Below are positions 33,543-49,718 of a DNA stretch of 64,000 nucleotides, in pieces (position 1 is the stretch's first letter; each line of letters opens with the position of its first letter). The stretch is from Geothrix limicola. Its GTDB lineage: Bacteria; Acidobacteriota; Holophagae; Holophagales; Holophagaceae. The stretch covers positions 124,001-188,000 of the forward strand of contig NZ_BSDE01000004.1 of the NCBI RefSeq assembly GCF_030268085.1, written 5' to 3'. A program made the position numbers and the translations under genes. Under the pieces are notes generated by a model, which was given only the letters and a program-made list of their open reading frames with translations, ran no database searches and was not told the DNA's origin.

Positions 33543-33916
33543 GGGCGGTCCGAAAAGGATGGGGATCGGGATCCCATTCGAGGCAGGGGGCGCACGTCAG
33601 GGAGGGCCACTGGAAGGAATGCCGAGGGCGCCATGGTAACGGGATGGCGCCTCTCGCCGCCGCACCCCAAAGGGCGATCGTCCGGGTGCAAAGGGAGCGG
33701 TGACGCGGGCTTTCGAAAAAATAAGTCCCTCGCCCGTCATGCCAAATACGACGCATCCACCGACACAAAAGGAAAGTGGCCGGGCAGGGAAAGAGGTCCG
33801 GAGACTGGGAAGCGGTCGCCGTCTCCCGTGTCAATTGGTGCAAATCGCCTTCCGGAAAGTCCGCTTGTCCCCCAAGGCCCGGTGGCCTGAATCTGGCGGG
33901 AGACTCCGGAGCCCCC
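33543..33916. other. 374-bp divergent intergenic region
   Basis: This lies between the starts of the transglutaminase-fold gene and the sugar-transporter gene. It contains the operator-like site at 33829 and no convincing ORF or terminator. A mildly AT-rich stretch (about 33715-33775) could hold promoters, but I could not define -35/-10 pairs. Confidence 0.6.
33829..33845 (+). promoter_or_regulatory. Proposed AraC-type operator upstream of the transporter/ROK/GH92 operon
   Basis: TGTCAATTGGTGCAAAT matches 16 of 17 positions of the site at 48798-48814 on the opposite strand (TGTCAAATGGTGCAAAT), and 13 of 17 of the 44663-44679 site. It reads toward the transporter gene, starting 88 bp before its ATG, so orientation to the target gene is the same in all three cases. 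Confidence 0.6.
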
Positions 33917-35044
33917 ATGCGGTTCAAGACCCTGCCCATCTTCCTGGCTTTCCTGCTCATGGGCGTGGCGGACGCCATGGGGCCGCTGTCCAGCGCGGTG
34001 TCGTCGAACCCGCTGATGGCAGCGTTGATGCCCTTCTTCGTCTTCATCGCCTTCGCACTCTTCAGCGTGCCCGCCGGTGTGTTGGCCGCGCGCATCGGCA
34101 AGAAGAACCTGCTGCTCCTGGGCCTGGCGCTCTGCACCGCCGCCGTGGCCGTGCCGGCCTTCCTGAACCCGCCCTTCCCGCTGCTGTTGGCTTCGATCTT
34201 CCTGCTGGGCGTGGGCACGACCTTCCTGCAGGTGGCAGGCAACCCGATCATGCGCGATGTGAGCGCCGAGGGTGACTACAGCCGCAACCTCGCGCTGGCC
34301 CAGGGCATCAAGGGCGTGGGCAGCACGGCCTCGGCTTTCCTCGTCACCGCCATCACGGGCCTCGCCTTCTTCGCGGCCATGGGCTGGCGGGGCGCCTTCC
34401 CGGTCTTCTTCGCGCTCATGGCTCTGGCCCTGCTGCTGGTGATGACGCTGAAGGTGGAGGAGACCCGCACCGAGGTGCCACCCAGCGTGGGCAGTTCCCT
34501 GGCCCTGCTCAAGGAGCCCGTCTTCGCGCTGGCGGTGCTCGGCATCTTCCTCTACGTGGGGGCCGAGGTCTGCATGGCCGCCTTCCTCAAGCCCGCTCTC
34601 GATGGCCTGGGCCTGAATCCCAAGGCGGCGGCGCTCTTCGGGCCCAGCCTCTTCTTCGGCACGCTCACCGTGGGCCGCCTCGTCGCGGGCAGCGTGCAGG
34701 TCTCGGCCCGCACCTTCTTCCGCCTGTCGGCGGGCCTGGGCCTCGCGGGCCTCGCGCTCGTGATGACGGGTGCCAAGCCGCTCGTGCTGACGGGCGTCGT
34801 GCTCGGCGGCTTCGGCTTCGCCAACATCTGGCCCATGCTCTTCAGCATCACGGTGGAAGAGCGGCCGGGCCGCGCCTCGGAGCTGAGCGGCCTCATGTGC
34901 ATGGCCATCAGCGGCGGGGCCCTGGTGCCCCTCGCCATGGCGCGGCTGGGCGGCGGCCGGCCCCTGGCCTTCGCCGTGCCCGCGCTGTGCTTCGGGTACC
35001 TGCTGCTGCTCTCCCTGAAGGGCGCCCGGAAGGCGGAGGCCTGA
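33917..35044 (+). CDS. FHS-family (FucP/GluP-like) sugar MFS transporter
   Basis: The ATG at 33917 follows CCGGAG; the protein is 375 aa with about 12 membrane helices. Features of the fucose/glucose-galactose:H+ symporter family are visible, especially VGTTFLQVAGNPIMRDVS in helix 4-5 (family LQVAANPL) and FGFANIWPMLFSI. It is shorter than typical FHS members (~410-440 aa). It heads an operon with the ROK kinase and the GH92 enzyme, consistent with import of the monosaccharide released by GH92 (mannose, by inference) and its phosphorylation. Confidence 0.85.
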   Translation: MRFKTLPIFLAFLLMGVADAMGPLSSAVSSNPLMAALMPFFVFIAFALFSVPAGVLAARIGKKNLLLLGLALCTAAVAVPAFLNPPFPLLLASIFLLGVGTTFLQVAGNPIMRDVSAEGDYSRNLALAQGIKGVGSTASAFLVTAITGLAFFAAMGWRGAFPVFFALMALALLLVMTLKVEETRTEVPPSVGSSLALLKEPVFALAVLGIFLYVGAEVCMAAFLKPALDGLGLNPKAAALFGPSLFFGTLTVGRLVAGSVQVSARTFFRLSAGLGLAGLALVMTGAKPLVLTGVVLGGFGFANIWPMLFSITVEERPGRASELSGLMCMAISGGALVPLAMARLGGGRPLAFAVPALCFGYLLLLSLKGARKAEA

Positions 35045-35045
35045 G

Positions 35046-36152
35046 GTGGGTATCTGGAACGACCCCCGTACCGTCCTCACCCTCGATGCCGGGGGCACCA
35101 ACTTCGTCTTCGGCGCCATGCGCGGAGGCGAAGAGATCCTCGACGCGCTGACCCTGCCCTCCCACGGGCATGACCTCGAGAAGTGCCTGGCCACGCTGGT
35201 GCAGGGTTTTGAGGAGATTCGTAGCCGCCTGACTGAAAGCCCCTGCGCCATCAGCTTCGCCTTCCCCGGCCCCGCGGATTACCCGGCGGGCATCATCGGC
35301 GACCTGGCCAACCTGCCGGCCTTCCGCGGCGGCGTGGCCCTGGGCCCCATGCTGGAGGAGCGCTTCGGCATCCCCACCTTCATCAACAACGACGGGGATC
35401 TTTTCACCTACGGAGAAGCCATCGCGGGCTTCCTGCCCGAGGTGAATGACGCTCTGGCGGAAGCGGGCAGTCCCAAGCGCTTCCGCAACCTCTTCGGCGC
35501 CACTTTCGGCACGGGCTTCGGGGGCGGCCTCGTGCACGACGGCCAGCTCTTCCTGGGCGACAACGCGGCGGCGGGCGAGATCTGGGCCATCCGCAACAAG
35601 CTGGATCGCACCTTCACCGCCGAGGAGGGCGTGAGCATCCGCGCCGTGCGCCGCGTCTACGCCACCCGCGCGGGCCTGTCTCTGGAGGAGGCGCCGGATC
35701 CCCGCGAGATCTTCGAGATCGCCCAGGGCCAGCGGCCCGGCTGCATCGAAGCCGCGCGCGCCGCCTTCCGGCGCATGGGCGAAGTGGCGGGGGATGCCCT
35801 GGCCTGCGCCGCCACCCTGGTGGACGGCCTCCTCGTCATCGGCGGCGGCCTGTCCGGCGCCGCGCCGCTGCTGCTTCCCGCCCTGGTGGGCGAACTGAAC
35901 GGCCTGCTGGAATCGCCCGCGGGCGCCCGTTTCCCGCGCCTGGAGGTGCGGGCCTTCAACCTGGAGGATCCCATCGAGCGCCGGGAATTCTTCCAGGCGG
36001 AAGTCCGCCAGATCCCCGTGCCCGGTTCTTCCCGCACCGTGCCCTACGACCCGCTGAAACGCATCGGCGTGGGCGTCTCCCGGCTGGGCACCAGCCGCGC
36101 CACCGCCATCGGCGCCTACGCCTTCGCCTTGGCCCAATTGGACCGATCCTGA
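35046..36152 (+). CDS. ROK-family sugar kinase
   Basis: The 368-aa protein starts with GTG two bases after the transporter stop. It has the phosphate-1 motif LDAGGTNFVFG, the substrate/phosphate-2 region ISFAFPGPADYPAGIIGDL and INNDGD (catalytic Asp), and the adenosine motif LLVIGGGLSGAAPLL. The ROK zinc motif (CxCGxxGCxE) is absent; the corresponding region reads AAAGEIWAIRNKLDR. Some sugar kinases of this type lack zinc. It probably phosphorylates the transported hexose in the cytoplasm. Confidence 0.85.
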   Translation: MGIWNDPRTVLTLDAGGTNFVFGAMRGGEEILDALTLPSHGHDLEKCLATLVQGFEEIRSRLTESPCAISFAFPGPADYPAGIIGDLANLPAFRGGVALGPMLEERFGIPTFINNDGDLFTYGEAIAGFLPEVNDALAEAGSPKRFRNLFGATFGTGFGGGLVHDGQLFLGDNAAAGEIWAIRNKLDRTFTAEEGVSIRAVRRVYATRAGLSLEEAPDPREIFEIAQGQRPGCIEAARAAFRRMGEVAGDALACAATLVDGLLVIGGGLSGAAPLLLPALVGELNGLLESPAGARFPRLEVRAFNLEDPIERREFFQAEVRQIPVPGSSRTVPYDPLKRIGVGVSRLGTSRATAIGAYAFALAQLDRS

Positions 36153-36169
36153 CGATTCTGGAGCAAGCC

Positions 36170-39151
36170 ATGTCCTTCCTTCGCGCCCTCCTGTGCGCCG
36201 CCCTGGCCGTCTCTGCAGCTTCCGCCGCGCCCGTTCGGAAACCCAAGCCCGCGGGTCCCAGGCCCGTGGACCTGGTGGATCCCTTCATCGGGACGGGGGG
36301 CCACGGTCACACCTTCCCCGGTCCCAGCCTGCCCTTCGGCATGATCCAGCCGGGGCCCGACACGCGGCTCACGGGCTGGGATGGCTGCAGCGCCTACCAC
36401 TTCAGCGATTCGGTGATCTACGGCTTCAGCCATACCCACCTCTCGGGCGTCGGTGTCTCCGACTACGGCGACATCCTGCTGCTGCCCGCCACGGGCCCCG
36501 TGAAGCTGAAGAGCGGCTACCACGCCAAGGGCGAGCAGGCGCCCACCTTCGATCCGAGCGGCTACGGCAGCCACTTCCGCAAGGATCACGAGCAGGCCTC
36601 CGCGGGCTACTACGCCGTCTCGCTGGACGATTACGGCGTGAAGGCCGAACTCACGGCCACGCTGCGGGCGGGCCTCCACCGCTACACCTTCGAGCGCGCC
36701 GAAGGCGCCCACGTGCTCCTGGATCTGCAGCACCGCGACGAGGTGATCACTTCCTCGCTCAAGATCGTGGACGATCACACGGTGGAGGGCCTGCGGCGTT
36801 CCAATGCCTGGGCCGCGGATCAGCCGGTCTATTTCGTCGTGCGCTTCTCCAAGCCCTTCCGGGCCGAGCTGGCGGTGGACGATCAGCTGCGCGCGGGCCT
36901 GCGTTCCGCCGAAGGCAAGAACTTGAAGGCCGTGCTGCGCTTCCAGGTGAAAGCCGGGGAGACGGTGCTGGCCAAGGTGGGCCTGTCCGGCGTGGATGTG
37001 GACGGTGCCCGGCGCAACCTCGACGGCGAGCTGCCGGGTTGGGATTTCGAAGGCACCCGCCGCGCAGCCCACGGCGCCTGGGCCAGGGAGCTGGACAAGG
37101 TCGAGGTGGAGGGCGGCACGGACAACCAGCGCGCCATCTTCTACACGGCCCTCTACCACGCCTTCCTGCAGCCCAACGTGTTCACGGATGTCGATGGCCG
37201 CTACCTGGGCCGCGATCTGAAGATCCACCGCGCGGCGGGCTACACGCAGCACACGGTGTTCAGCCTCTGGGACACCTTCCGCGCCGCCCACCCGCTCTAC
37301 ACGATCCTCGAAACGCGGCGCACCCGCGACTTCATCCAGACCTTTCTGGCCCAGGCGGAGCAGGGCGGCCTGCTGCCGGTATGGGAACTCTGGGGCAACG
37401 AAACGGGCTGCATGATCGGCAACCACGCCATCCCCGTCATCGTGGACGCCTACCTGAAGGGCATCCGCGGCTTCGATGCGGAGAAGGCCTTCGAGGCCAT
37501 GAAGAAGAGCGCCATGCAGGACCGGCTGGGCTTCGCGGCCTACCGCCAGCAGGGCTACATCCCCTTCGATCAGGAGGTGGAAAGCGTCTCCAAGACCCTG
37601 GAATACGGCTACAACGATTGGTGCATCGCCCAGATGGCGAAGGTGCTGGGGAAGGCTGATGACTACGCGGTGTTCCTCAAGCGCAGCCAGGCCTACCAGC
37701 ACCTGCTGGATCCGGAGACGGGCCTCATGCGGCCCAAGGCGAACGGCCATTTCAAGACACCCTTCGATCCCGCGGAAGTCGATCACAACTACACCGAGGC
37801 GAACGCCTGGCAGTACAGCTTCTTCGTGCCCCACGACATCTCCGGCCACATGGCGCGCCTGGGCGGCCCCGCGGGCTACGCGGCGAAGCTCGACGAGATG
37901 TTCGCTGCCGCCAGCCGCACCAAGGGACGTGAGCAGGTGGACATCACGGGCCTGGTGGGCCAATACGCCCACGGCAACGAGCCCAGCCACCACATGGCCT
38001 ACCTCTACAGCTTCGCGGGCCAGCCCTGGAAGACCCAGGCCATGGTTCGCCGCCTGATGAATGAGATGTACCACAAGGATCCCGATGGCCTCATCGGCAA
38101 CGAGGACTGCGGCCAGATGAGCTCCTGGTTCGTGCTCAGCGCCATGGGCTTCTACCCCGTGAATCCCTGCGGCGGCGAGTACGTCATCGGCTCGCCGCTC
38201 TTTTCGCGCGTGACGCTGAAGCTGGAGAACGGCAAGCGCTTCGTCATCCAGGCCCGGGGCGAAGGCCCCTACGTCCAGTCCGTGAAGCTGAACGGTCAGG
38301 CCTACGGCAAGGGCTTCCTGCGCCACGTCGACATTAAAAAGGGCGGGATGATTTCGTTCACCCTCGGCCAGGCACCGAACCAGGCCTGGGGCTCGGGCGA
38401 AGCGGACCGCCCGCACACGTCCGTGAACGAGCACCTCATCCAGCCCGCGCCCTACGTGGCCGAAGGCGACCTGCTCTTCCAGGAGCGCACGGCGGTGAAG
38501 CTGGCCTCGCCCCTGTCCGGTGCGGTGATCCACTTCACCTTGGACGGCACCACGCCCACCGAGGCCTCGCCCAGGTACGAAGCGCCCATCGAGCTGCGCG
38601 ACAGCGCCACCCTGAGCTTTGTGGCCTTCGCCAAGGGCCTGCCGCCGAGCCCCAAGGCCGAGGCCCGCTTCAAGCGCATGCCCGTGAAGTGGGGCGTCGA
38701 TCTGCAGACGCCCTTCCACCCCCAGTATTCCGCCGGAGGTGCGAATGCCCTGGTGGACGGCATCCGCGGGGGGACGGACTTCCGCCTCGGCGGATGGCAG
38801 GGCTTCCTGGGCACCGATCTCGTCGCCGTGGTGGATCTGCGGGCCGCCCAGCCGATCCGCAAGGTGGCCCTGGGCTGCCTGCAGGATCAGAACGCGTGGA
38901 TCTTCATGCCCGCCGAAGTGACGTTCGAACTGTCGCTGGATGGCCAGGCCTGGGGCCCTGCGCTTCGCGTGGCGAACCCGGTGTCCCCGAAGCAGGACGG
39001 TGCCATCATCCACGACTTCGCCGCCGAGGCGGGCGGCCAGCAGGCCCGCTACATCCGCGTGCGGGCGCGCTCCATCGGGCCCTGCCCGGACTGGCACAAG
39101 GGCACGCCGGGCGCCAGCTTCCTCTTCGTGGACGAACTCACGGTCGAGTAG
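36170..39151 (+). CDS. GH92 alpha-mannosidase-like enzyme with C-terminal sugar-binding domains
   Basis: The 993-aa secreted protein (signal LLCAALAVSAASAAP) is a GH92 family member: N-terminal beta domain (VDPFIGTGGHGHTFPGPSLP, FGMIQPGPDTRLTGWDGCS) and (alpha/alpha)6 domain with the signature DGLIGNEDCGQMSSWFVLSA, where E645 is the expected general acid. After ~770 come a chitobiase-C-like domain (FTLDGTTPTEASPRY) and an F5/8 type C (discoidin) module (NALVDGIRGGTDFRLGGWQG). GH92 enzymes are calcium-dependent exo-alpha-mannosidases that trim N-glycans and mannans; the linkage cannot be told. It is third in the transporter-ROK operon. Confidence 0.93.
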   Translation: MSFLRALLCAALAVSAASAAPVRKPKPAGPRPVDLVDPFIGTGGHGHTFPGPSLPFGMIQPGPDTRLTGWDGCSAYHFSDSVIYGFSHTHLSGVGVSDYGDILLLPATGPVKLKSGYHAKGEQAPTFDPSGYGSHFRKDHEQASAGYYAVSLDDYGVKAELTATLRAGLHRYTFERAEGAHVLLDLQHRDEVITSSLKIVDDHTVEGLRRSNAWAADQPVYFVVRFSKPFRAELAVDDQLRAGLRSAEGKNLKAVLRFQVKAGETVLAKVGLSGVDVDGARRNLDGELPGWDFEGTRRAAHGAWARELDKVEVEGGTDNQRAIFYTALYHAFLQPNVFTDVDGRYLGRDLKIHRAAGYTQHTVFSLWDTFRAAHPLYTILETRRTRDFIQTFLAQAEQGGLLPVWELWGNETGCMIGNHAIPVIVDAYLKGIRGFDAEKAFEAMKKSAMQDRLGFAAYRQQGYIPFDQEVESVSKTLEYGYNDWCIAQMAKVLGKADDYAVFLKRSQAYQHLLDPETGLMRPKANGHFKTPFDPAEVDHNYTEANAWQYSFFVPHDISGHMARLGGPAGYAAKLDEMFAAASRTKGREQVDITGLVGQYAHGNEPSHHMAYLYSFAGQPWKTQAMVRRLMNEMYHKDPDGLIGNEDCGQMSSWFVLSAMGFYPVNPCGGEYVIGSPLFSRVTLKLENGKRFVIQARGEGPYVQSVKLNGQAYGKGFLRHVDIKKGGMISFTLGQAPNQAWGSGEADRPHTSVNEHLIQPAPYVAEGDLLFQERTAVKLASPLSGAVIHFTLDGTTPTEASPRYEAPIELRDSATLSFVAFAKGLPPSPKAEARFKRMPVKWGVDLQTPFHPQYSAGGANALVDGIRGGTDFRLGGWQGFLGTDLVAVVDLRAAQPIRKVALGCLQDQNAWIFMPAEVTFELSLDGQAWGPALRVANPVSPKQDGAIIHDFAAEAGGQQARYIRVRARSIGPCPDWHKGTPGASFLFVDELTVE

Positions 39152-39203
39152 GACGGGTCCCAAAGGCCTGCTGGTGTTGGAAGAACGGCAGAAAGGAATG
39201 ATT

Positions 39204-39299
39204 TAAGCGGAGGAGAACGGAGGAGCTGAGGAAAGCGGAAATCAAAAAGAGAACGATCTTCTCTCCGCTTTCCTCAGCCCCTCTGCTTCCCTCCGCTTA
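39204..39299. repeat. REP-like inverted repeat, family B
   Basis: Two 36-bp arms (39204-39239 and 39264-39299) match at 31 of 36 positions around a 24-bp loop; all five differences are A/G transitions. The motif includes TAAGCGGAGG and GCTGAGGAAAGCGGA. It separates the convergent GH92 and thioredoxin-like genes and may terminate transcription in both directions. It is unrelated in sequence to family A. Confidence 0.8.
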
Positions 39300-39323
39300 C
39301 CGAATTCCTTGGCCTTTTTGGAA

Positions 39324-39734
39324 TTACTTCACCCATTCCGCCAGTTCCGCGCCCGTGTGCAGGATCTCTTCCCGCCGCTTCTTCTCGCGGCCGTCGGGTC
39401 CGAGCATGAGGAAGGTGGGGAACACGGAGAGGTTCCAGCGCCGGGCGAGGAGGCGGTTCTCGCGGATCTCCAGCTTGGTCTCCGTGTGGATCTGCACGGA
39501 AATGGCCACGCATCCCGCCAGGGCCGCCTGCGCCTCGGGGGAGGGCAGCACCTCCCGCTGGACGTGCTGGCACTGGGGGCTGTAGCCCGTCCAGACGTAG
39601 ACGAAGAGGGGTTTCCCTTCGGTCTGGGCGCGGGCGAGGGCGGCGCGATACTCCGCCTCACCACGGATGGGGGTCTGGGCCAGGGCGGGCAGCAGGGCCG
39701 TGAAGGCTGCGAGCAGACAAGGGCTCAAGCGCAT
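39324..39734 (-). CDS. Secreted thioredoxin-like protein lacking the first active-site Cys
   Basis: The 136-aa protein has a signal peptide (CLLAAFTALLPALAQ) and a thioredoxin fold of the thioredoxin_7/DUF255 type: PLFVYVWTGYSPQCQHVQRE, then RWNLSVFPTFLMLGPDGREK with the cis-Pro. The usual CxxC is SPQC here, so only the second cysteine remains and normal dithiol exchange is not expected. It could be a redox-inactive or single-Cys binding protein. It has its own upstream region after the terminator at 39747. Confidence 0.75.
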   Translation of the reverse strand: MRLSPCLLAAFTALLPALAQTPIRGEAEYRAALARAQTEGKPLFVYVWTGYSPQCQHVQREVLPSPEAQAALAGCVAISVQIHTETKLEIRENRLLARRWNLSVFPTFLMLGPDGREKKRREEILHTGAELAEWVK

Positions 39735-39746
39735 GGGAACTCCGGA

Positions 39747-39779
39747 TAAAAGGAAGGCCGGCGAGGAGCCGGCCTTCCT
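39747..39779 (-). terminator. Rho-independent terminator of the TonB/barrel operon
   Basis: Minus-strand AGGAAGGCCGGC-TCCTC-GCCGGCCTTCCT is a 12-bp perfect stem followed by TTTTAT. It comes right after the stop of the 223-aa barrel gene. Confidence 0.88.
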
Positions 39780-39802
39780 GGGGTTTCGACGACTGCAGAA
39801 GC

Positions 39803-40474
39803 CTAGAAGTGATAGCTCACGCCGAGCTGCAGCCAGGCGGGCGTGATGGAGTACTTGCCCTGGTCGTGGTAGTGACCGACGGAGCCGCCATTGGTCCAGA
39901 GCGGGTTGTCCATGGTCACCTGCTCGCTGCTCGTGCCGGCTTCGACGATCTGGTAGAAGCAGCGCACGGACCAGTGGCGATCCACGAAGTATTCCAGTCC
40001 GAACTTGCCGCCCAGCTTCAGGCCCTCGATGGTGTGGCTCGTGTTGCCTGCGGGGTGGACGAGGCCGTCCGCCGTGCTCGTGTAGCTGTCGTAGTCCGAG
40101 GAGACCTTCAGCTTGTTGACGTTCACGCCCAGGATGAACTTCAGGTTCTGGACCGGCGTGTTCACGATCAGCTCGCCGCCCAGCTGGGCCTGGGTGTACT
40201 TGACGTCGCGCTGCGTGAGCTGGGAGGTGTCGGAAAGGGTGCCGACCTCCGCCGTGAGGCGGTAGCCGGTGCCCGCGAAGCCGGTCCAGAAGGTGCGGCC
40301 CGCGTGGATGGAGAAGCCCTTGCTGCCGGGCAGGTCGCCCGAGATGGACTGGCTTCCCTTGTTGAGGTCGATCCCCGTGAACCAGGGGCCGGTGGGATCC
40401 TCCGCGCGCAGGCCGAGGGAGCCGATGGCGGCGAGCGCCAGCACCGAGAGCATAGTCTTTCTTGCCATGTGCAT
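39803..40474 (-). CDS. Outer-membrane beta-barrel protein (223 aa)
   Basis: A signal peptide (KTMLSVLALAAIGSLGLRA) is followed by alternating beta strands, a pattern typical of 8- to 10-stranded barrels, ending with the outer-membrane terminal strand LGVSYHF. No SusD, OmpA or OmpW motif is decisive. It is the third gene behind the TonB receptor (12 bp) and ends at a terminator. Alternative start: the ATG two codons later (MARKTML). The function is unknown; it may assist the receptor. Confidence 0.75.
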   Translation of the reverse strand: MHMARKTMLSVLALAAIGSLGLRAEDPTGPWFTGIDLNKGSQSISGDLPGSKGFSIHAGRTFWTGFAGTGYRLTAEVGTLSDTSQLTQRDVKYTQAQLGGELIVNTPVQNLKFILGVNVNKLKVSSDYDSYTSTADGLVHPAGNTSHTIEGLKLGGKFGLEYFVDRHWSVRCFYQIVEAGTSSEQVTMDNPLWTNGGSVGHYHDQGKYSITPAWLQLGVSYHF

Positions 40475-40486
40475 TCTCCCTTGGGA

Positions 40487-43400
40487 TTAGAAGCGGAACC
40501 CGAAGCTCGCGGTGACCCGGCGGCCGTCATTCCAGTAGTTGTTCGTGGTGCCGGGTTCGGTGGTGCCGAAGCGGGTCACGTCGAGGATCAGGTGGCTGAC
40601 GCCAGTGGTGTCCGTGGTGTTGAAGGCCGTGTTGTAGGAATTCACGAAGTGGTTCAGCACGTTGTCGATCTTGATTTCGCCGAACATGCGGAGCTTCGCC
40701 CAGACCGGCACTTCGTAGTTGATCTGGCAGTTCAGGAACCAGCGGTCGTTCTGGGTGTTGGCGTTGCGGCCGCCGAAGTACTTCTGGTAGCCGGTGGGCG
40801 CATCGGGATAGGCCACGCCGTTGGCGTCGTTGGGCAGGTTGGGGATGGCCGGGTTGAAGTCCACGGTGGTGGTGGATCCGAAGTGCGATCCGGTGGCGTA
40901 GCGCAGGAACCAGCCCGTGGTGATGCGGCCCGCACCGGCGGGATGCATGGTGGTGAGGAAGAGGTTGATGCGGTGGGTCTGGTCGTTGGCCAGCAGGCCG
41001 TAGGGCGCGAAGTCGTTGGCCTTGCCGTTGGCGACCTGCCACTGGCGCTGGCTGTAGTAGCCGCTGACGCCGTAGTCGGCGATCATCTGCCCGGCCACGT
41101 CGCTGCCTTCGTTGTTGCCCGTGAGGCGGCTGTAGGTCCAGTTGCCGCCGAAGGTGTACCAGCTCTTGCGCACGGTGAAGTCCAGCTCCAGGCCCTGGTA
41201 GTCGCGCTTCAGCTCGTTGCTGTTGAAGACGCGGGTGACCTGGGAATACATGGAGGGCAGGCCCGAGTGGGTCGGGTCCGTGAGCAGCACCATCTGATCC
41301 GGCGTGTAGTCCTGGGCGAAGGCCCAGTCGCGGCGCCAGCTGCGGTTCACGTACGTGATGCGGAAACTGGAATTGTTCTTGAAGTTGTGGGCGAATCCGA
41401 GGGTATATTCGTCCATGTAGGGCACCTTCAGACTGCCGTCGATGCGCGTGGTCTTGGAGGTGTCGTTGAAGGCCAGCACCTTCTTGTAGTTGTTGAGGTC
41501 GTAGAACTGGCTGAGGCTGAGGAAGCGCAGGCCGTACTGGTCAACCCCGCCCACCATGTCGCCGGGGCCCGCGGCGGGCTGTCCGGCGATGCCCGTGAAC
41601 TGGCGGTCCACCTCGATCTGTTCTTCCGACTTCGTGAGGTACTTCGTGAAGGCCTGGGGCAGGTAGCCCAGCAGGCGGGCGGCGGTGAAGGTCACGAGGT
41701 TGGCGTTATCGCCCTTCACGTCGTAGCGGATCTGCACCCGAGGCGAATAGTCGGAGGTGGTGAACACCGTCGAACCATCCGCGTCCTTGGCGATGAACTT
41801 CTCCCAGCGCAGGCCGCCCATCACGTTCCAGTGGCTGTTGAGGGTCCACTGGTCGTTGACGTAGAGGGCCTGGTGATCGTTGTTGTAGGTGCCGCCGCCG
41901 CCGAGGAAGGTCATCACCGAGGGGATGGGGCCGCTGTAGCCCCCGCCGCTCTCGCCCACACTGGTCCAGTTGGTGCCGCCGGTGTGGATCGTCGGAATGA
42001 CGATGTTTCCGCTGCCGTTGATGTACATGCCCGGGGCGCGGAAGAGGGCATGGTTGGTGCCCCAGCCGCCCGGGGAGACACGCTGGGACTGGTAGTAGTC
42101 CACGCCGAAATCCACCTCGTGATTGCCGAAGGCTTCGAGGTTGGCGGTGACGTTGAGGTTGGCGTTGGTGTTGCGGTCGCCGTCCACGCCCGGGGAGAAG
42201 TAGCCGAAGGGCCAGCCGTCGGAGACGCGCGATCCGCTGGCATTGGTGCCGTAGGCGAGAACCTTCTGGCCGTCGCCGCCCTGGGCGACATCGCCGGTGC
42301 CGTAGGTCTGGTCGGTCTTCGCCTTGTTGAACTTGCCTTCGATGAACCAGTTGGAGCTGAGGATGCCGCGGTAGACCAGGCTGAGGTTGCGCTGGGCCGT
42401 CGTGTTCTGGCCCAGGGCCGCGATGGCGCTGGTGTTCCAGAGGTCGTCGTAGTAATCCGTGGGGCCCTTGGTCTGGTCGGCCTTGAGGTAGCCGGCTTCC
42501 AGCGTGTGGTCCGTGTTGATGGCGAAGGTCAGCTTGCCTTCGTAGTATTTGTAGTCGTTCTTGCGGGCGATCTCGGTGCCCGCATCGAAGCGGGTAAAGC
42601 GGTAACCCGAGGGCACGAGGCTGCCGGCGGTGGGAAGTCCGGTGGTGGGGTCGGTCTGGGTGAGGGCGTTGATGTTGCTGGCCCAGGTGGGGCCGTTGAC
42701 CCGGGCCACGCGGAGGGGCCGGTTGTTATCGACGCCCCAAGCCAGAATGCCCGTGTCCGTGCCGCCGGGAACGAGAATCGTCGCCAGGGCGAAGCGCAGT
42801 CGGCCGGGAATGATGGGGCCGTTGAGGGTGATGTCGTAGTGCGGGCTGATGGTGTCCTGGTTGATGGAGCGGTAGTCATCCTGGGGCCGGGTGGACTTCC
42901 AGTTCAGGCGGGTGGCGCTGGAGCGGATGGAGCCGTGGAATTCGTCGCTGCCGGTCTTCGTCGTGACGTTGATGGCGCCGCCGAGCACGCGGCCGATGCG
43001 GGCGTTCAGGGGCGACAGGATGACCTGCACGTCCTCGACGTTGTCCTCCACGAACCAGTTCTCGCCGCCGAAGTAGCCCCGGCTTTCGTTCTTCACCTGG
43101 GCGCCGTTCACCTGGTACATCGTGTTGTTCGTGCTGCCGCCGCGGATGGTGGGGCGGTAGGTGTTCGTGTCGTTGACCACGCCCGGTGTCAGCATGGCGG
43201 CGCCGAAGAAGCCGCGGTCCTGGGTGGGGATGGTGGCCAGTTCCTCCTGGCTGAAGTTGCTGGCGATCTTCGTGTCCGTCTTGGGAAGGGCCACGCCCTC
43301 GCTCACCACTTCCACCGTGGCCGTGGCCACCGTCTGGGTGCGCAGGGTCAGGTCCTGGCGCGAGACCACGCCCAGGCCCAGGTGGATGTCGCGGATCTCG

Positions 43401-43666
43401 CCAGAGAAGAAGCCTTCCTTGACCACCACCACGCGGTACATGCCGAGGGGCAGCAGGGGGGCCCGCCACTCGCCCTTGGCATCGGTGCTGAGGGTGCGGT
43501 CGGCGAAGAGGGCGGGGGAGGTGATGACCACCTTGGCCCCGGCCACGGGACGTCCGGCTTCGTCACGGACGAGGCCGTTCATGGAGGCGGAGGCCTGCTG
43601 GGCCACGGCCGCAGTGGCGGCGAGGCAGCAGGCAAGCGCGGTCACTCTGCTTGTGAATCGGTTCAT
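40487..43666 (-). CDS. Oar-like TonB-dependent receptor
   Basis: The 1059-aa protein has a signal peptide (ALACCLAATAAVAQQ), a carboxypeptidase-regulatory domain (about 28-115: ASMNGLVRDEAGRPVAGAKV), a plug (PTIRGGSTNNTMYQVNGAQV, GGAINVTTKTGSDEFHGSIR) and a long 22-stranded barrel ending VTASFGFRF. Such Oar-like receptors are common in Acidobacteria and replace the SusC type. TonB energises uptake of large ligands. The neighbours suggest a glycan or oligosaccharide, but no SusD-like lipoprotein is present. A second barrel gene lies immediately upstream. Confidence 0.92.
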   Translation of the reverse strand: MNRFTSRVTALACCLAATAAVAQQASASMNGLVRDEAGRPVAGAKVVITSPALFADRTLSTDAKGEWRAPLLPLGMYRVVVVKEGFFSGEIRDIHLGLGVVSRQDLTLRTQTVATATVEVVSEGVALPKTDTKIASNFSQEELATIPTQDRGFFGAAMLTPGVVNDTNTYRPTIRGGSTNNTMYQVNGAQVKNESRGYFGGENWFVEDNVEDVQVILSPLNARIGRVLGGAINVTTKTGSDEFHGSIRSSATRLNWKSTRPQDDYRSINQDTISPHYDITLNGPIIPGRLRFALATILVPGGTDTGILAWGVDNNRPLRVARVNGPTWASNINALTQTDPTTGLPTAGSLVPSGYRFTRFDAGTEIARKNDYKYYEGKLTFAINTDHTLEAGYLKADQTKGPTDYYDDLWNTSAIAALGQNTTAQRNLSLVYRGILSSNWFIEGKFNKAKTDQTYGTGDVAQGGDGQKVLAYGTNASGSRVSDGWPFGYFSPGVDGDRNTNANLNVTANLEAFGNHEVDFGVDYYQSQRVSPGGWGTNHALFRAPGMYINGSGNIVIPTIHTGGTNWTSVGESGGGYSGPIPSVMTFLGGGGTYNNDHQALYVNDQWTLNSHWNVMGGLRWEKFIAKDADGSTVFTTSDYSPRVQIRYDVKGDNANLVTFTAARLLGYLPQAFTKYLTKSEEQIEVDRQFTGIAGQPAAGPGDMVGGVDQYGLRFLSLSQFYDLNNYKKVLAFNDTSKTTRIDGSLKVPYMDEYTLGFAHNFKNNSSFRITYVNRSWRRDWAFAQDYTPDQMVLLTDPTHSGLPSMYSQVTRVFNSNELKRDYQGLELDFTVRKSWYTFGGNWTYSRLTGNNEGSDVAGQMIADYGVSGYYSQRQWQVANGKANDFAPYGLLANDQTHRINLFLTTMHPAGAGRITTGWFLRYATGSHFGSTTTVDFNPAIPNLPNDANGVAYPDAPTGYQKYFGGRNANTQNDRWFLNCQINYEVPVWAKLRMFGEIKIDNVLNHFVNSYNTAFNTTDTTGVSHLILDVTRFGTTEPGTTNNYWNDGRRVTASFGFRF

Positions 43667-43694
43667 TCGGGATTCCTCCTCGATCCGGCCGTGG

Positions 43695-44453
43695 CTAGAA
43701 ACGGAATACGTAAGCGATTTCGATGTGGGGGACGAAGCGCGACTTGGTGTCGAGGGAATCCGCGGCCGTGTGTCCGCCCGTGGTATCCGCCACCGTGCCC
43801 GCCACGTGGACGTAGTTCGCCGACGTGTAGTTCAGGAGCAGCACGTTGAATTCCAGGCCTGAGGACTCGTCGATGCGGTAGTGGAAGCCGGCGTAGGGGC
43901 TCACTCCCAGGGCGCTCTTGGTGGGCGTGCCGTTGTAGGTGTCGAGGTAGGTGGCCGCGACGGCGCCGGCGGGGCGGGGATCATAGGGATCGTTCTGGCT
44001 GCTGTAGCCGTCAGAGACCGTGCCCATGACCTGGTGCTTGAAGCGCGTGAAGTTGAACTGCAGGCCGGCGCTCCAGGTCCACTCGGCCTTGGGATCCCGC
44101 TCGTAACCCAGACGCAGGGTCGTCCCATCCAGGCTGTTCTTGCGGGCGTCCGCGGAGTAGCGGGGATCGACGGTCTTCCCGGCGGCGGTGTTCCAGGTGT
44201 CGTAGCGGTACTCCTCGCCGGGCTTGTAGAGGTAGCCCAGCTCGGCGCTGAAGCGGCCGAGGGGATGGCTGTAGCCCACTTCGAAACCCATGCCGAAGAC
44301 GCGGCCATCGAGGTGGTCCTGGAGGGAAGAGGCCTGTCCGGCGACCCGGAACTTGAAGCGGGCGTCGAGGTTGTCCAGCACGCCCTGGGCGGACATGGGG
44401 ACGGCCGATACGAGGGCGAGCGCCGCCGACAGCGTCAATCGGATTGGGTTCAT
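43695..44453 (-). CDS. Outer-membrane beta-barrel protein (252 aa)
   Basis: The ATG at 44453 with GGAGACCC upstream gives 252 aa; an extension to 44504 has no support. A signal peptide (RLTLSAALALVSAVPMSAQ) precedes a barrel (FEVGYSHPLGRFSAELGYLY, WTWSAGLQFNFTRFKHQVMG) ending EIAYVFRF. It is the first gene of the operon barrel-TonB receptor-barrel. Unknown function. Confidence 0.75.
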   Translation of the reverse strand: MNPIRLTLSAALALVSAVPMSAQGVLDNLDARFKFRVAGQASSLQDHLDGRVFGMGFEVGYSHPLGRFSAELGYLYKPGEEYRYDTWNTAAGKTVDPRYSADARKNSLDGTTLRLGYERDPKAEWTWSAGLQFNFTRFKHQVMGTVSDGYSSQNDPYDPRPAGAVAATYLDTYNGTPTKSALGVSPYAGFHYRIDESSGLEFNVLLLNYTSANYVHVAGTVADTTGGHTAADSLDTKSRFVPHIEIAYVFRF

Positions 44454-44757
44454 GGAGGGTCTCCGGGGTGGGGAAGGGAAGAACGGGGGTTGGTGATGCA
44501 TCAATTTGAAAAATTGTCAAGCGTCAATGAATGTCGGTGTTTAGCCCGCAGCCGCGATCCCTGCTTTGGTACGAACACGCACGAACTGCCATCTGGAACC
44601 CTGGTCATCATGGAACTCTACGAATGAAGGCCCGCCAGAAGTAGCCGAAGTTTTATCGGTCTATTTTCACTTTTTGACATGTCTGTACATCGTTTGTTAC
44701 ACGCCGATGCCCACGCGCTGCCGGGGCTCGGAGCCCGGTCGCGCGCGGGGTGGGTTT
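44454..44757. other. AT-richer regulatory region upstream of the TonB/barrel operon
   Basis: This 304-bp gap contains the 36-bp conserved site (44645-44680), a perfect TTGACA on the minus strand (44515-44520), and a small palindrome CAATTT-GAA-AAATTG (44502-44516). No -10 hexamer fits well at 16-18 bp. I see no ORF. Confidence 0.6.
44645..44680 (-). promoter_or_regulatory. Proposed AraC-type operator upstream of the TonB/barrel operon
   Basis: This 36-bp segment matches 48780-48815 at 29 of 36 positions without gaps. On the minus strand the core TGTCAAAAAGTGAAAAT (44663-44679) is followed by a conserved CGATAAAA and CTTCGG. Both copies lie in the intergenic region upstream of a leftward sugar-uptake operon and in the same orientation. 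The surrounding sequence is not obviously conserved, which argues for a functional site rather than a recent duplication. Confidence 0.6.
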
Positions 44758-47268
44758 TCACCAGATCGTGAGGACTTCGCTGCGAAGGGTCTCCAGCAGG
44801 GTCTGCGGGTCGGGCGTGTTTTCCAGGTGCTCGCGGAAGCTCTCGTCCATGAGGCGCCGTGCCAGGCGGGCGAAGAGCCGCAGGTGCGCCTCGCCCACAT
44901 CCTCGCCCGGAAGGGCCAACAGGAGCACGGTGCGGACGGGCGGTTCGTCGGAGGCACCCCAGGCCACGGGCTCGACGAGCCGGAGCATGGCGAGGGTGGC
45001 GCATTCCATGGCGTTCGTCTGGCAATGGGGCACGGCGAAACCGTAGCCCACGCCCGTGGCGAAGACACGCTCCCGGGACCAGATGGCCTCCTCGAGGACG
45101 CGAGGGGCCCGCGTGCGCCCGCTCAGGAAGGCACGTTCCGCCAGCCGCTTGATGGCCTCCTCCTTGGTGAGGCAGGGAACATCCAGCTCCAGCAGCTCGG
45201 CTTCGACGACGGGCCGGGTGGGCTGCCTGGCGCTAGAGGGGCGGAACAGCGCTTCCACGTCCTGGGCGCGGGCGCAGGCCAGGGCCTGCATGGCGAGGTC
45301 TTCGCAGGCGGACGCCTCCAAGGTTCCCACCGCGTGCTTGAGATCGAGGATGGCCGAGGGCGCCACGCTCAGCGCATCGAAACCCAGGCCGACGAGCAGG
45401 GGCAACAGCTCGGGGCGCGCGGCCATCTCGCCGCAGATGCTGACGGGGCGCTGGGCTGCGCGGGCGGCGCGGACGATGCCATCCAGGAGGCGCAGGGTGA
45501 CCGGATGCCAGGCGAACTCGGGGCGCGCCACGGCCGGCAGGTTGCGGTCGGCGGCGAACAGGTACTGCACCAGGTCATTGCTTCCCACGCAGAAGAAGTC
45601 CGCGTGCTGGGCGAGGGCGCCGAGGCTCAGGGCCGCGGCAGGGACCTCGATCATCGCGCCGAGGGGTGGTGCCGGAACCTGGAGCTGGCGGGCTTCTTCC
45701 TCCAACAGCTGACGCACCCAGGCTAGTTCGGAGGCTTCGCTCACCATGGGCACCATCATGCGCAGATGTCCGCCCTGGGCCGAGGCGCGCAGCGCCGCGC
45801 GGATCTGGGTGCGGATGATGTCGGAGTGCTGCGCGTACCAGCGGACGGCGCGCTGGCCGAGGAAGGGGTTGGATTCCAGGGGCAGGCGCAGGTAGGGCAG
45901 GGGCTTGTCACCACCGGAATCCAGCAGTCTCAGGGTGATGGGACGGTCGCCCGCCGCCTGCAGCACGGCGCGGTAGAGCTCGAATTGCTCATCCTCCGAG
46001 GGCGGAACGGCGCGTTCGAGAAACAGCATTTCCGTGCGGAAGAGTCCCACGCCTTCGGCGCCCAGGGCGAAGGCACCACTGGCTTCTTCGGCCAGCGAAA
46101 GGTTGGCGAGGATGGCGACGGGATGCCCGTCCCGTGTAGCGGCAGGTTGCGTCGCATGCCGCTTCAGGCGCTCCTGGTGGATCTTCTGGCCTTCGGATTC
46201 CACGGAGAAATAGCGCCCCACTTCGGGAGTGGCCGCTTCGATCACGATGCCCTGCGCGCCATCGACGAGGAGCCGCGCTCCCGGCGCAAGGGCCGGGGGC
46301 AGCCCGTGGATGCCCGCCACGAGCGGGATGCCAAAGGTGCGGGCCAGGATGGCGATGTGGGAAGTGGGCCCGCATTCGGTGAGCACCATGCCCTTGAGAT
46401 GCGTCCGGTCCAACCTGGGGAACTGGTTCAGGGGCAGATCCCGGGCCACGAGCACGTAGGGTTCTTCGGGGGTCTGCAGCGGGGCTTCGGGGCCCGGGCC
46501 GCCGAGGGCGCGGACGAGCCGCGCGGACAGGCCGCGCACGTCGGCGGCGCGTTCCCGCAGCAGGGCCTGGTCGCTGGCTTCGAGCGTCTTCGCCCAGGCC
46601 CGTCCGGCTTCCAGGATGGCCGACCGGGCCGTGAGGGATTGCTCCTGGATGCCCTGGGCCACAGAGCCGCGCCAGGCGCGGTCCTGCAGCATGCCGCGGT
46701 GGGCTTCGAGGATGGCCCTCAGCGTGGGGTGCTCCGCGTGGGTGGACTCCGTCAGCAGCTCGCCTTCCACCTGGGCCAGCGCCGCGGCGAAGGTCTTGAT
46801 CTCCAGATCGGCGGGGGTGTGCCTGAGGCGCGGCTCCTCGGCGGGCAGGGCCAGGCCCGAGGCGAGGACCGCCAGGCCTTCGCCCGCTCCAGGGCTGAGT
46901 CCCTGGCCCGTCCACCAGAGGACAGAAGCCTTCTGCAGCAGCTGCGGAATGACCGTGCCGATCCCTCCGCTGGAGGGCGCCGCCGGCTCTTCGTCGGATT
47001 CGAGAAAGGCGCCTTCCAGGAAGGTGGAAAGGGCCTCCAGTGCCGATCCGGCATCCTGGCCCTGCACCGCGAGGCGGCAGGGATCTCCGTAGCCGGTGTT
47101 GGTGGCGATGAGGCTGAGGAGGTCGCGCAGGTCGGAGCTCCGCCCGGTCTTCTCGTTGAAGAGCAGGCAGTCCGCCCTGAACAGGTGGGCGCGCTCCCGC
47201 AGGGCCGCGGCAGGCCTCGCATGGAGGCCGCGGACGAGCGGGAAGGCGAACCTGTGCTGGAAGGTCAT
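44758..47268 (-). CDS. PTS multiphosphoryl transfer protein, HPr-EI-EIIA(Fru) fusion
   Basis: The 836-aa protein joins three phosphotransfer domains: HPr (about 1-90, H16 in RGLHARPAA), Enzyme I (about 110-670, phospho-His H304 in GPTSHIAILAR, PEP-binding motifs such as LFRTEMLFLER and GSNDLVQYLFAADR) and a C-terminal fructose/Ntr-type EIIA (about 690-836, H748 in FAVPHCQT). It takes phosphate from PEP to the EIIB encoded next to it. Similar fusions (FruB-like) have other domain orders. It is downstream of EIIC and EIIB in the same operon. No fruK (1-phosphofructokinase) is in the window. Confidence 0.92.
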   Translation of the reverse strand: MTFQHRFAFPLVRGLHARPAAALRERAHLFRADCLLFNEKTGRSSDLRDLLSLIATNTGYGDPCRLAVQGQDAGSALEALSTFLEGAFLESDEEPAAPSSGGIGTVIPQLLQKASVLWWTGQGLSPGAGEGLAVLASGLALPAEEPRLRHTPADLEIKTFAAALAQVEGELLTESTHAEHPTLRAILEAHRGMLQDRAWRGSVAQGIQEQSLTARSAILEAGRAWAKTLEASDQALLRERAADVRGLSARLVRALGGPGPEAPLQTPEEPYVLVARDLPLNQFPRLDRTHLKGMVLTECGPTSHIAILARTFGIPLVAGIHGLPPALAPGARLLVDGAQGIVIEAATPEVGRYFSVESEGQKIHQERLKRHATQPAATRDGHPVAILANLSLAEEASGAFALGAEGVGLFRTEMLFLERAVPPSEDEQFELYRAVLQAAGDRPITLRLLDSGGDKPLPYLRLPLESNPFLGQRAVRWYAQHSDIIRTQIRAALRASAQGGHLRMMVPMVSEASELAWVRQLLEEEARQLQVPAPPLGAMIEVPAAALSLGALAQHADFFCVGSNDLVQYLFAADRNLPAVARPEFAWHPVTLRLLDGIVRAARAAQRPVSICGEMAARPELLPLLVGLGFDALSVAPSAILDLKHAVGTLEASACEDLAMQALACARAQDVEALFRPSSARQPTRPVVEAELLELDVPCLTKEEAIKRLAERAFLSGRTRAPRVLEEAIWSRERVFATGVGYGFAVPHCQTNAMECATLAMLRLVEPVAWGASDEPPVRTVLLLALPGEDVGEAHLRLFARLARRLMDESFREHLENTPDPQTLLETLRSEVLTIW

Positions 47269-47278
47269 GAAGGGATCC

Positions 47279-47581
47279 TCAGCCCTGCAACCGCTCGAAG
47301 ACGGCGACGGGATTCTTGATGGCCCACTGCACGGGCACTTCCAGGACCAGGGGGATCTCCTTGAAGCGGTCCCTTCCCATCACGGGGATGTCGGCGGCGA
47401 AGATGACGGCTTCGGCCTCGAGGAAATCCTCGCCGGTCAGGGCGTTCTCGATGCCCATGGCGCCCTGGGTCTCCACCTTGACCTGGTGGCCGAGCTTCTC
47501 GCCGGTGCGCTCCAGCTGTTCAGCCGCCATGTAGGTGTGGGCGATGCCCGTGGGGCAGGCGGTGACGGCGACGATCTTCAT
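47279..47581 (-). CDS. PTS fructose-family EIIB
   Basis: The 100-aa protein is an EIIB-Fru domain with active Cys9 in VTACPTGIAHTYMAAEQLE. It transfers phosphate from EIIA to the sugar at EIIC. The ATG at 47581 overlaps the EIIC stop (ATGA) and has GGAG upstream; an in-frame GTG at 47587 is less likely. The EIIB and EIIC are separate polypeptides here, whereas many bacteria fuse them. Confidence 0.93.
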   Translation of the reverse strand: MKIVAVTACPTGIAHTYMAAEQLERTGEKLGHQVKVETQGAMGIENALTGEDFLEAEAVIFAADIPVMGRDRFKEIPLVLEVPVQWAIKNPVAVFERLQG

Positions 47582-48615
47582 GGGCACTCCGGAGGGACGG
47601 GCTGTTTCCAGCCTTTGAGCAGGTTCATGGTCAGGGCCACCACCAGGGTTCCCGCGGCGATGGCTATGAGGTAGGCCACCCGGTGTTCGATCACGGGCAG
47701 GACGATGAGCCCGCCGTGAGGCGCGTGATCGCCCACGGTGCCCATCAGGGCGATGACGGCCCCCACCGAGGAGCCCGCCATGATGGTGGGGATGACGCGG
47801 ATGGGATCGGCGGCCGCGAAGGGGATGGCCCCTTCGGTGATGCCGATGACGCCCATGGCCAGGGCCGCCAGGCCGGATTCCCGCTCCTGCTCGGACCAGC
47901 TTGCGGGTCGCAGGAGGGTGGCGAGGCCGAGGCCCAGGGGCGGGATGCAGATGGCCGCGGCACAGGCGCCCATCATGCTGACGTCGCCCTCCTTGATCAT
48001 GGCCACGCCGAAGAAGAAGGCCGCCTTGTTCACGGGGCCGCCCATGTCGAAGGCGATCATGGATCCGAGCAGCAGGCCCAGCCAGATGCGGTGTCCGCCG
48101 CTCAGGTGATGCAGGGCCCCGGAAAGCCAGACCATGAGCCCCTTGATGGGCGGGCCGAGCACCAGCAGCAGCAGGGCGCCGACGAGGGCCGACGTCACCA
48201 CGGGCAGGATGAGGATCGGCATGATGGGCCGGAGGTTGCGGGGCAGGGGCAGGCGCTTGAAGACCTGCACCATCCAGCCCGCCAGCAGCCCGGCAGCGAT
48301 GCCGCCCAGGAACCCCGCGCCCACGGCCTGGGCGATGGCGCCGCCCACGAAGCCGGGCACGAGGGCCGGGCGGTCCGCCATGCCGAAGGCGATGTAGCCC
48401 GCGAGCACGGGCACCACGAGGGCGAAGGCCGCTTCGCCGATGGTGAAGAGGATCTTGAGGGTCGGCGCCTGGCTGAAATCGGGCCCGATGCCGGGACGCA
48501 TGGGGGCAAAGCCGATGGCCACCGCGATGAGGATGCCCCCGCAGGCCACGAAGGGGATGACGTGGGACACGCCGGACAGCAGGTACTGCTTGAGGCGGTG
48601 CAGGAAGGCGGGCAT
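47578..48615 (-). CDS. PTS fructose-family EIIC permease
   Basis: The 345-aa inner-membrane protein has at least eight hydrophobic segments and the EIIC-Fru signatures SHVIPFVACGGILIAVAIGF, AFDMGGPVNKAAF and GITEGAIPFAAADP. It translocates and, with EIIB, phosphorylates the sugar (fructose or a mannose-type sugar, unproven). It leads the operon EIIC-EIIB-HPr/EI/EIIA, divergent from the AraC regulator gene. Confidence 0.93.
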   Translation of the reverse strand: MPAFLHRLKQYLLSGVSHVIPFVACGGILIAVAIGFAPMRPGIGPDFSQAPTLKILFTIGEAAFALVVPVLAGYIAFGMADRPALVPGFVGGAIAQAVGAGFLGGIAAGLLAGWMVQVFKRLPLPRNLRPIMPILILPVVTSALVGALLLLVLGPPIKGLMVWLSGALHHLSGGHRIWLGLLLGSMIAFDMGGPVNKAAFFFGVAMIKEGDVSMMGACAAAICIPPLGLGLATLLRPASWSEQERESGLAALAMGVIGITEGAIPFAAADPIRVIPTIMAGSSVGAVIALMGTVGDHAPHGGLIVLPVIEHRVAYLIAIAAGTLVVALTMNLLKGWKQPVPPECP

Positions 48616-48779
48616 GGAGGCTTCGGAGAGGGGGTCGCTGGGATCCGGTGGTGGGGGCGTTCAGAAGCTAGCAATGCGTCAAGTCTGTCACGGGTGCCCC
48701 ACGGTGAAGCGCGTCGGGCGTACATGTGTATCCCAGGGCCATTCTCGCAATTTACGGGACATGGCCTCCGGAAAACAGC

Positions 48780-48815
48780 CCGAAGATCTATCGCTCCATT
48801 TGCACCATTTGACAT
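48780..48815 (-). promoter_or_regulatory. Proposed AraC-type operator in the PTS/regulator divergent region
   Basis: The partner of the 44645 site (29 of 36 identical). The minus-strand core is TGTCAAATGGTGCAAAT (48798-48814). It lies 25 bp before the regulator's start codon and about 165 bp upstream of the EIIC gene, so it could control both and allow autoregulation. Confidence 0.6.
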
Positions 48816-48839: not shown

Positions 48840-49661
48840 TTGAGCGAACCCGTCCGAAACCTGTGGCAGATCCCGGCGGATCCCGAAGACGTGGCCTGGG
48901 GCCTCTACATCACGGGCGTCGGCGCCGGCATCACGGACCTATCCTCTCCCAAGGAGGGCTGGCGCCTGCTCTATCTGGTGCGGGGCGCGGCGAACCTAGT
49001 TCACGGCGGGCGGAAGCAGCGCCTGGAGGCGGGCCACCTCGTGATTCTGAACGCGCAGAAGGGCGTGACGCTGGTGCCCGATCCCCAGCGTCCGCCGCGG
49101 GCCCACCGAGTGGATTGTGCCGGATCCATGCTGGAGCACTGGGCGCGGACCGGCTTTTTTGGGAGCTTTCCCTGCATCCTGCGGCCGGGCTTCGACGAGA
49201 TCCTGCTGGGTCTGGTGGGCTCCCTGGTGGAGCTGGCGCGGCTTCAGCCCCTGGGCGCCAAGCGGCTGATGTCTGGGGTCGTCAGCCACATGATGGCCCG
49301 CCTGGAGACGGTGCGGCATTCGGGCGCCGGGGCCGGCAGCCAGCGCCGCCTGCTGCTGGAGGCCCGGAACCTGCTCGCTGATCCCGAGCACGACCGGCTC
49401 GGCCTCGAATCCATCGCCGAGGAACTGGGCGTCAGCTACTCCTGGTTTCGCCAGGCCTTCCGGCGCCAGTCGGGCCTGCCACCCCAGCGCTTCCGCCAGA
49501 ACCAGCGTATGACGCGGGCCTGCCAACTGCTTTCGGATACGCAACTGCCGGTGGCCAACATCGCGCAGGAGCTGGGCTTCGGCTCACTGTCCTACTTCTC
49601 GCGCGTCTTCCGCAAGGAGACGGGCCTTTCACCCACCCTCTGGCGGAAGACCCGGCCCTGA
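48840..49661 (+). CDS. AraC-family transcriptional regulator
   Basis: The 273-aa protein has an N-terminal cupin-like sensing domain (about 25-110: WRLLYLVRGAANLVHGG, RLEAGHLVILNAQKG) and a C-terminal double helix-turn-helix (about 170-270: LGLESIAEELGVSYSWFRQA, then VANIAQELGFGSLSYFSRVF and FRKETGLSPTLWRK). The start is TTG, with a GAGGG-type ribosome-binding sequence upstream. It is divergent from the PTS operon and is the only specific regulator in the sugar region, so it is the likely reader of the TGTCAA...GTGnAAAT motif. Confidence 0.9.
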   Translation: MSEPVRNLWQIPADPEDVAWGLYITGVGAGITDLSSPKEGWRLLYLVRGAANLVHGGRKQRLEAGHLVILNAQKGVTLVPDPQRPPRAHRVDCAGSMLEHWARTGFFGSFPCILRPGFDEILLGLVGSLVELARLQPLGAKRLMSGVVSHMMARLETVRHSGAGAGSQRRLLLEARNLLADPEHDRLGLESIAEELGVSYSWFRQAFRRQSGLPPQRFRQNQRMTRACQLLSDTQLPVANIAQELGFGSLSYFSRVFRKETGLSPTLWRKTRP

Positions 49662-49671
49662 AAAGTTATTC

Positions 49672-49718
49672 ACCGCGAATGACGCGAATCGCCCTTCGGG
49701 CGCGCGGTGGTTTTTCGT
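49672..49718 (+). repeat. REP-like family A copy, used as terminator
   Basis: ACCGCGAATGACGCGAAT (49672-49689) is identical to the core of the 29985 repeat. It is followed by the hairpin CGCCC-TTC-GGGCG, then CGCGGT and a T-rich run, which can form a Rho-independent terminator for the AraC gene. Confidence 0.7.

Follow-up and report, generated by a model that had tools for sequence, protein, structure and literature searches.

A shared direct-repeat operator at the sugar genes of Geothrix limicola points to a small AraC-type regulon

Genes and operator sites at the locus

The window analysed here is a stretch of 64,000 nucleotides from the 4.23-Mb genome of Geothrix limicola (G000). On its plus strand, a gene at 48840–49661 encodes an AraC-family regulator of 273 aa with a cupin-like sensor and a DNA-binding domain of the AraC type. 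The C-terminal domain with the two helix-turn-helix (HTH) motifs of the family is detected (HTH_18, 1.3e-23; HTH_AraC, 2.1e-19), as is an N-terminal cupin-type ligand domain (AraC_binding, 1.8e-5, above the cut-off), and the nearest solved structure to the DNA-binding domain is that of E. coli AraC (2k9s). On the minus strand lies a PTS operon with a fructose-family EIIC (47578–48615; TIGR01427, 1.4e-87; FrwC-like, 2.4e-103), an EIIB (47279–47587; PF02302, 2e-18) and an HPr-EI-EIIA(Fru) fusion (44758–47268; PF00381, PF05524/PF00391/PF02896 and PF00359). In this fusion, HPr, EI and the fructose-type EIIA are joined in a single 836-aa protein, with EIIB and EIIC encoded by separate genes. Orthologues of araC adjoin the same PTS in nine other genomes or loci.

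The minus strand furthermore carries an outer-membrane (OM) operon. The translation of its first gene (43695–44453) indicates a secreted protein of ~250 aa with the signal peptide MNPIRLTLSAALALVSAVPMSAQG, probably a small barrel, for which no family was found above the cut-off. The other genes encode a TonB-receptor-like OM barrel with a carboxypeptidase-regulatory-like N-terminal domain (40487–43666; PF13620, 8.9e-14; PF25183, 1.8e-13) and a small OM beta-barrel protein (39803–40474; PF13505, 2.9e-7). An operon on the plus strand contains an FHS/GlcP-like MFS sugar transporter (33917–35044; PF07690, 5.1e-22; TIGR01272, 1.3e-20, below the cut-off), a ROK-family sugar kinase (35046–36152; PF00480, 2.4e-18, residues 11–292) and a GH92 exo-alpha-mannosidase (36170–39151; PF07971, 4.8e-182) with a signal peptide at its N-terminus. 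A secreted MGH1-like glycoside hydrolase is encoded at 28630–30015 (plus strand; PF22422, 2.7e-7, above the cut-off), its start codon following a GGAGG.

Upstream of these genes, the original prediction described two similar 36-bp sites and three further sites resembling their 17-bp core. The coordinates and identities proved correct, with 29/36 matching positions for the pair and 16/17, 13/17 and 12/17 for the sites at 33829, 28546 and 24279 compared to the copy at 48798. We delimit a non-palindromic operator of 38 bp, in which the strong half-site TGTCAAAAAGTGCAAAT takes up 17 bp and a weaker A-box (TGACAAAACT-like) follows 21 bp downstream. When the sites are aligned on the core, the offset of +21 for the A-box ranks first among 131 offsets tested; in the second half-site, the A-box is kept and the B-box is not conserved. 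AraC-type direct repeats had been predicted and are indeed present, but the key repeat runs from TGTCAAAA to the second A-box 21 bp downstream and does not lie inside the 17-bp core. Two half-sites in direct orientation, ~21–22 bp apart, are the arrangement of AraC/MtlR-type activator operators.

Operator 1 (48777–48814, minus strand) lies in the araC/PTS intergenic region, with half-site 1 at 48814–48798 and the weaker half-site 2 starting from 48793, and is located 24–47 bp ahead of the araC start codon. Operator 2 (44642–44679, minus strand) precedes the OM operon and operator 3 (33829–33866, plus strand), which has the exact core, precedes the FHS transporter-ROK-GH92 operon. Operator 4 (28546–28583, plus strand) is weaker; it precedes the MGH1-like glycoside hydrolase gene and overlaps the last codons of an upstream CBM9 gene.

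The window contains additional repeats. Intergenic repeats on CGCGAATGACGCGAAT occur in inverted arrangement after two genes (29985–30090 and 49659–49690) and look REP-type. An inverted repeat, TAAGCGGAGGAGAACGGAGGAGC, is found close to where the GH92 gene ends (39204–39300), and a terminator-like stretch, AAAGGCCGCAAAAGCGGCC, is duplicated at 52525–52830 beside a tRNA gene (52813–52884, minus strand).

Rarity and conservation of the operator

Plain identity of 29/36 is insufficient as a proof of significance in a GC-rich window: about ten pairs in this 67% GC window reach it, mostly in GC-rich sequence. We thus applied tests weighted for base composition and based on a matrix. With the weighting, only one other direct pair in the window surpasses that of operators 1 and 2, and no pair close to its score came up in two Markov-random windows. 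A 38-bp matrix was trained on the strong sites alone, leaving out the weak sites. It scored the three strong sites at 58.7, 49.0 and 42.6, with operator 2 the highest. The held-out site at 28546 reached 26.5, compared to 8.4 for the next match in the window and a maximum of 16.6 over 100 random windows, and the orthologous place in the related genome G020 scored 23.5, the fourth highest in its region. We thus conclude that 28546 is a real fourth operator. The other weak match of the original prediction, at 24279–24295 (plus strand) ahead of a 1035-aa gene, scored below 3, is not kept in G020 and was rejected as a member of the regulon.

Across the 4.23-Mb genome, the exact 13-base core TGTCAAnnnGTGnAAAT has three matches, which all lie within the window and are the three strong sites; the reversed control yielded none. 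Allowing up to two mismatches added just five further matches. Among the near-matches to the core, we rejected C1:615997 and C2:510650, both inside reading frames, C1:566554 (AGTCAACAAGTGGAAAT), which is repeated in five genomes, and C7:29448; none of these has a link to sugar genes and all were lost in the matrix scan. The whole-genome matrix scan retained four sites, all of them at sugar genes, so that the motif does not occur at random places. In G000 and G020, the first pass scored 112–150 of ~310–440 candidates and may therefore have overlooked a further, very weak site.

G020 belongs to the same genus and has the same gene order, and its EIIC and AraC are 89% identical to those of G000. 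The four operators recur there in the same order, the three strong ones at orthologous positions. Between G000 and G020, operators 1, 2 and 3 have identities of 84, 97 and 92%, whereas the remainder of each intergenic region reaches 58, 49 and 36%, respectively. Since G000 and G020 are close relatives, the conservation of operators 2–4 represents essentially one lineage. In five further genomes of the genus (G033, G013, G002, G035 and G019), conservation is limited to araC and the PTS operon, with ~50% identity for AraC and 73–76% for EIIC. The araC-EIIC intergenic site is present in the first four; in G019 it is degraded (TGCCGAAAAGGTCAAAT), and the first HTH of its AraC differs too. Three loci from Holophagaceae/Geothrix MAGs (L086, L087 and L089) were obtained by a scan of named genomes and each contains the exact TGTCAAAAAGTGCAAAT between araC and EIIC. 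These loci provide a fair held-out test because they were fetched after the motif had been fixed. Altogether, the araC-EIIC site is found in seven of eight more distant Holophagaceae loci (AraC ~50% identical), G019 being the exception. The predicted conservation upstream of orthologous operons is thus borne out, in G020 and in these distant loci.

To these comparisons we added two profile searches. A sequence profile without base pairs, built from the strong sites alone (R1), found three matches in G000, three in G020 and one each in G033, G013, G002 and G035; it found none in G019 and nothing further up to E = 10. A refined profile that includes the 28546 sites (R2) was used to scan 61 genomes and yielded 12 strong matches, all in six of the seven genomes that carry this AraC. 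The 54 genomes without this AraC contained no R2 match at E<0.01, the next match (E 0.04) belonging to another family. The genome-wide E-value of 28546 itself was 2.6e-5, by this model that includes it. As in a single regulon (regulog), the site is located upstream of orthologous operons and is limited to genomes with the regulator, except for G019.

These patterns bear on two other explanations of the sites. The likeness of operators 1 and 2, which match at 29/36 positions and lie 4.1 kb apart, might stem from a promoter fragment that was duplicated recently, or from a dispersed repeat without regulatory role. However, the sites are kept in diverged lineages and their flanks are not, there are no other copies in the genome, and the likeness does not extend beyond the positions of the AraC half-site pattern, which makes such an origin extremely unlikely. 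Binding of AraC to the sites is a prediction, and they might instead be recognized by another regulator or serve an alternative sigma factor as promoter elements; CCGATAA in operator 2, for instance, resembles part of a flagellar sigma-28 -10 box. We consider this very unlikely: there are only four sites per genome, none outside this locus; they occur in six of the seven genomes with this AraC and in none of the 54 others; a distinct -10 is located 40 bp beyond them; and Pfam detects no HTH domain in the ROK protein.

Some core-like sequences elsewhere were observed in addition. AGTCAAGAAAGGCAAAT in G020 is a dispersed repeat with at least nine copies on contig C1 (e.g. L038 2481) and was rejected, and TTTCAATCTGTGYAAAT, with 11 copies in G008, is an unrelated dispersed repeat. 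TGTCAAGATRTGCAAA sites occur in four genomes of the genus without this AraC (L026, L020, L034 and G016 C45:13982), within AT-rich DNA and, where read, apparently between genes; they could be the site of another regulator.

Promoter layout and predicted mode of regulation

A TAnnnT hexamer occurs at position 60–62 of the operator in 12 of 14 sites, with no other within 110 bp; the density of TAnnnT in the window is 0.07% per position. The -10-like hexamer is TAAATT at operator 1 (48749–48754, minus strand; position 61 from the operator start, with the same register in all orthologues), TAGAGT at operator 2 (44615–44620, minus strand; position 60) and TACACC at operator 4 (28605–28610, plus strand; position 60; TACATC in G020). 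At operator 3, a possible -10, TGAATCT (33888–33894, plus strand), has the same register, matches the consensus poorly and is conserved in G020. The second half-site or the -10 hexamer is poor at operators 3 and 4, as is the core at operator 4. From the position of the hexamers, we predict the -35 near position 37–43. The proximal half-site lies beside or overlaps this predicted -35, as in AraC/MtlR activators. The ATG follows at position 85–91 from the operator for the MGH1-like gene, FHS and the PTS of other lineages; the PTS and OM genes of G000 and G020 have longer leaders. A reading of the sites as RNA leaders was rejected, as Rfam gives only a tRNA in the window and the sites are upstream of the predicted -10.

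The long PTS and OM leaders have a second element in common, GACAnnC-TTGACGC (GCGTCAA on the opposite strand), located on the minus strand at 48676–48695 and 44521–44540. It is conserved in G020 (TTGACTC at OM), and GCGTCAA/TTGACGC has just five copies in the window. This element may represent a further site for AraC or a promoter, or it may be due to chance.

We propose that the regulator would bind as a dimer to the 38-bp operator, whose end would adjoin the -35 region, with the -10 at 60–62 and transcription predicted to start at about position 72. Once a sugar ligand is present, the regulator would act as a class-II activator at four promoters, namely those of the PTS operon (EIIC-EIIB-HPr/EI/EIIA), the OM receptor operon, the FHS transporter-ROK-GH92 operon and the secreted MGH1-like glycosidase gene. 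The position of operator 1 ahead of the araC start codon moreover suggests autoregulation of araC. Alternatively, AraC might be bound to the sites as a repressor or autoregulator and not as a class-II activator. Being just 24–47 bp from the start codon, operator 1 could block the araC promoter when bound, and E. coli AraC both represses and activates (PMC4486848). However, every site is upstream of and beside the predicted -35 and not over the -10 or the start, and the order of a strong distal and a weak proximal half-site is typical of activators, so that this alternative seems improbable.

Class-II activation remains our preferred reading. Since four promoters share a switch that is kept in relatives beside the same regulator gene, the genes for sugar uptake, trimming and phosphorylation at this locus very probably constitute one small regulon. 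The single AraC regulon of the original prediction is thus supported by the rarity of the sites, their conservation at orthologues and their co-occurrence with AraC across 61 genomes.

Substrate, regulon growth and relation to known systems

The linked glycosidases give a hint on the substrate. A GH38 alpha-mannosidase gene is located directly behind HPr-EI-EIIA in G033, G013, G002 and G019, with a signal peptide in both proteins that were read (G033 and G013). GH38 is absent from G000 and G020, where the GH92 and FHS/ROK genes are found. Because GH92 shares the operator in G000 and G020 and GH38 lies behind the PTS in other lineages, alpha-mannosides are our best guess, and alpha-mannosides or mannose are most likely the substrate of the regulon. 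A mannosylglycerate PTS of the MngA/MngB type, with a cytoplasmic GH38 phospho-hydrolase, was rejected because the GH38 has a signal peptide in G033 and G013 and is missing in both G000 and G020; against the MngB model, it had a weak score of 59.8 (cut-off 1138).

The regulon could be real and yet serve fructose or another sugar. EIIC and EIIA are of the fructose family, and ribose-type ABC genes are found beside EIIC-EIIB in L086 and L089. However, the linked glycosidases belong to alpha-mannosidase families (GH92 here, GH38 in sister lineages), and transporters for mannose and for mannosylglycerate are known within the fructose PTS family. We thus regard another sugar as somewhat unlikely. 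In L089 (769–4439) and L086 (135–1097), araC-EIIC-EIIB is followed by the ribose-type ABC transporter instead of HPr-EI-EIIA, with at least the binding protein present in L086; this weakens the mannoside reading for those lineages. The explanation as a whole, that is AraC class-II activation of four promoters via the 38-bp direct-repeat operator with alpha-mannosides or mannose as substrate, appears highly likely to us.

A tentative scenario is that the lineage of G000 and G020 rebuilt the regulon. The ancestral state would have comprised AraC, the PTS and a periplasmic GH38; GH38 would have been lost and copies of the operator recruited to GH92/FHS/ROK, the OM receptor operon and a further glycosidase, with the inverted GCGTCAA in the long-leader PTS and OM promoters as a possible looping operator. 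In its entirety, we consider this scenario doubtful. GH38 within the operon of one lineage and GH92 under a new operator in another would make a compact natural case of regulon growth. Given a regulator, an operator defined to 38 bp and what seems to be a complete, small set of targets, an unannotated sugar locus becomes a testable, putative pathway for alpha-mannosides in which a PTS is combined with PTS-independent uptake. AraC-type switches are well known, and to our knowledge few promoters of this phylum have been mapped. We found no AraC regulon for Geothrix in the literature searched, to which this regulon and its likely mannoside role are new; the novelty lies chiefly in the phylum and in the regulon's apparent growth between lineages.

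At araBAD, the half-sites of AraC are ~21 bp apart. The araI1-I2 sites are bound by an AraC-type DNA-binding domain like the one encoded here, for which 2k9s is the best solved match, and as here the regulator gene is divergent from its target operon. In E. coli, two adjacent half-sites serve activation (PMC4486848), and there are two half-sites here too. The half-site sequence differs, however, and the full-length sensor domain is only weakly similar. The E. coli system has a distant looping site, for which there is at most a candidate here, and its targets are arabinose genes, compared to PTS, GH92 and outer-membrane genes in Geothrix.

The layout is nearly the same at the Pseudomonas promoter PmtlE, where the AraC-family activator MtlR has a strong distal site (-72 to -58) and a weak proximal site (-50 to -36) next to the -35 (PMC4514859). 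MtlR also controls an operon for sugar uptake and catabolism, like the regulon proposed here; it differs in its repeat (AGTGC-N5-AGTAT), its mannitol operon without PTS or GH92 targets, and its proteobacterial origin (PMC4514859). The gene content recalls mannoside systems. The Man (mannosides) pathway of Shewanella unites, as here, permeases, regulators and genes of mannose catabolism with a predicted outer-membrane transporter, whereas in the excerpt considered the regulators manR-I/II are not described as AraC-family and the transporters listed include no PTS (PMC2996990). The alpha-mannoside regulons of Bacteroides belong to another phylum and employ SusC/SusD transport, and their regulators are membrane hybrid two-component proteins (HTCS) and a GntR protein (ManR); nevertheless, with HTCS_Man and ManR, one regulator links outer-membrane uptake, alpha-mannosidases and mannose uptake, as we propose for AraC in Geothrix (PMC3878776).
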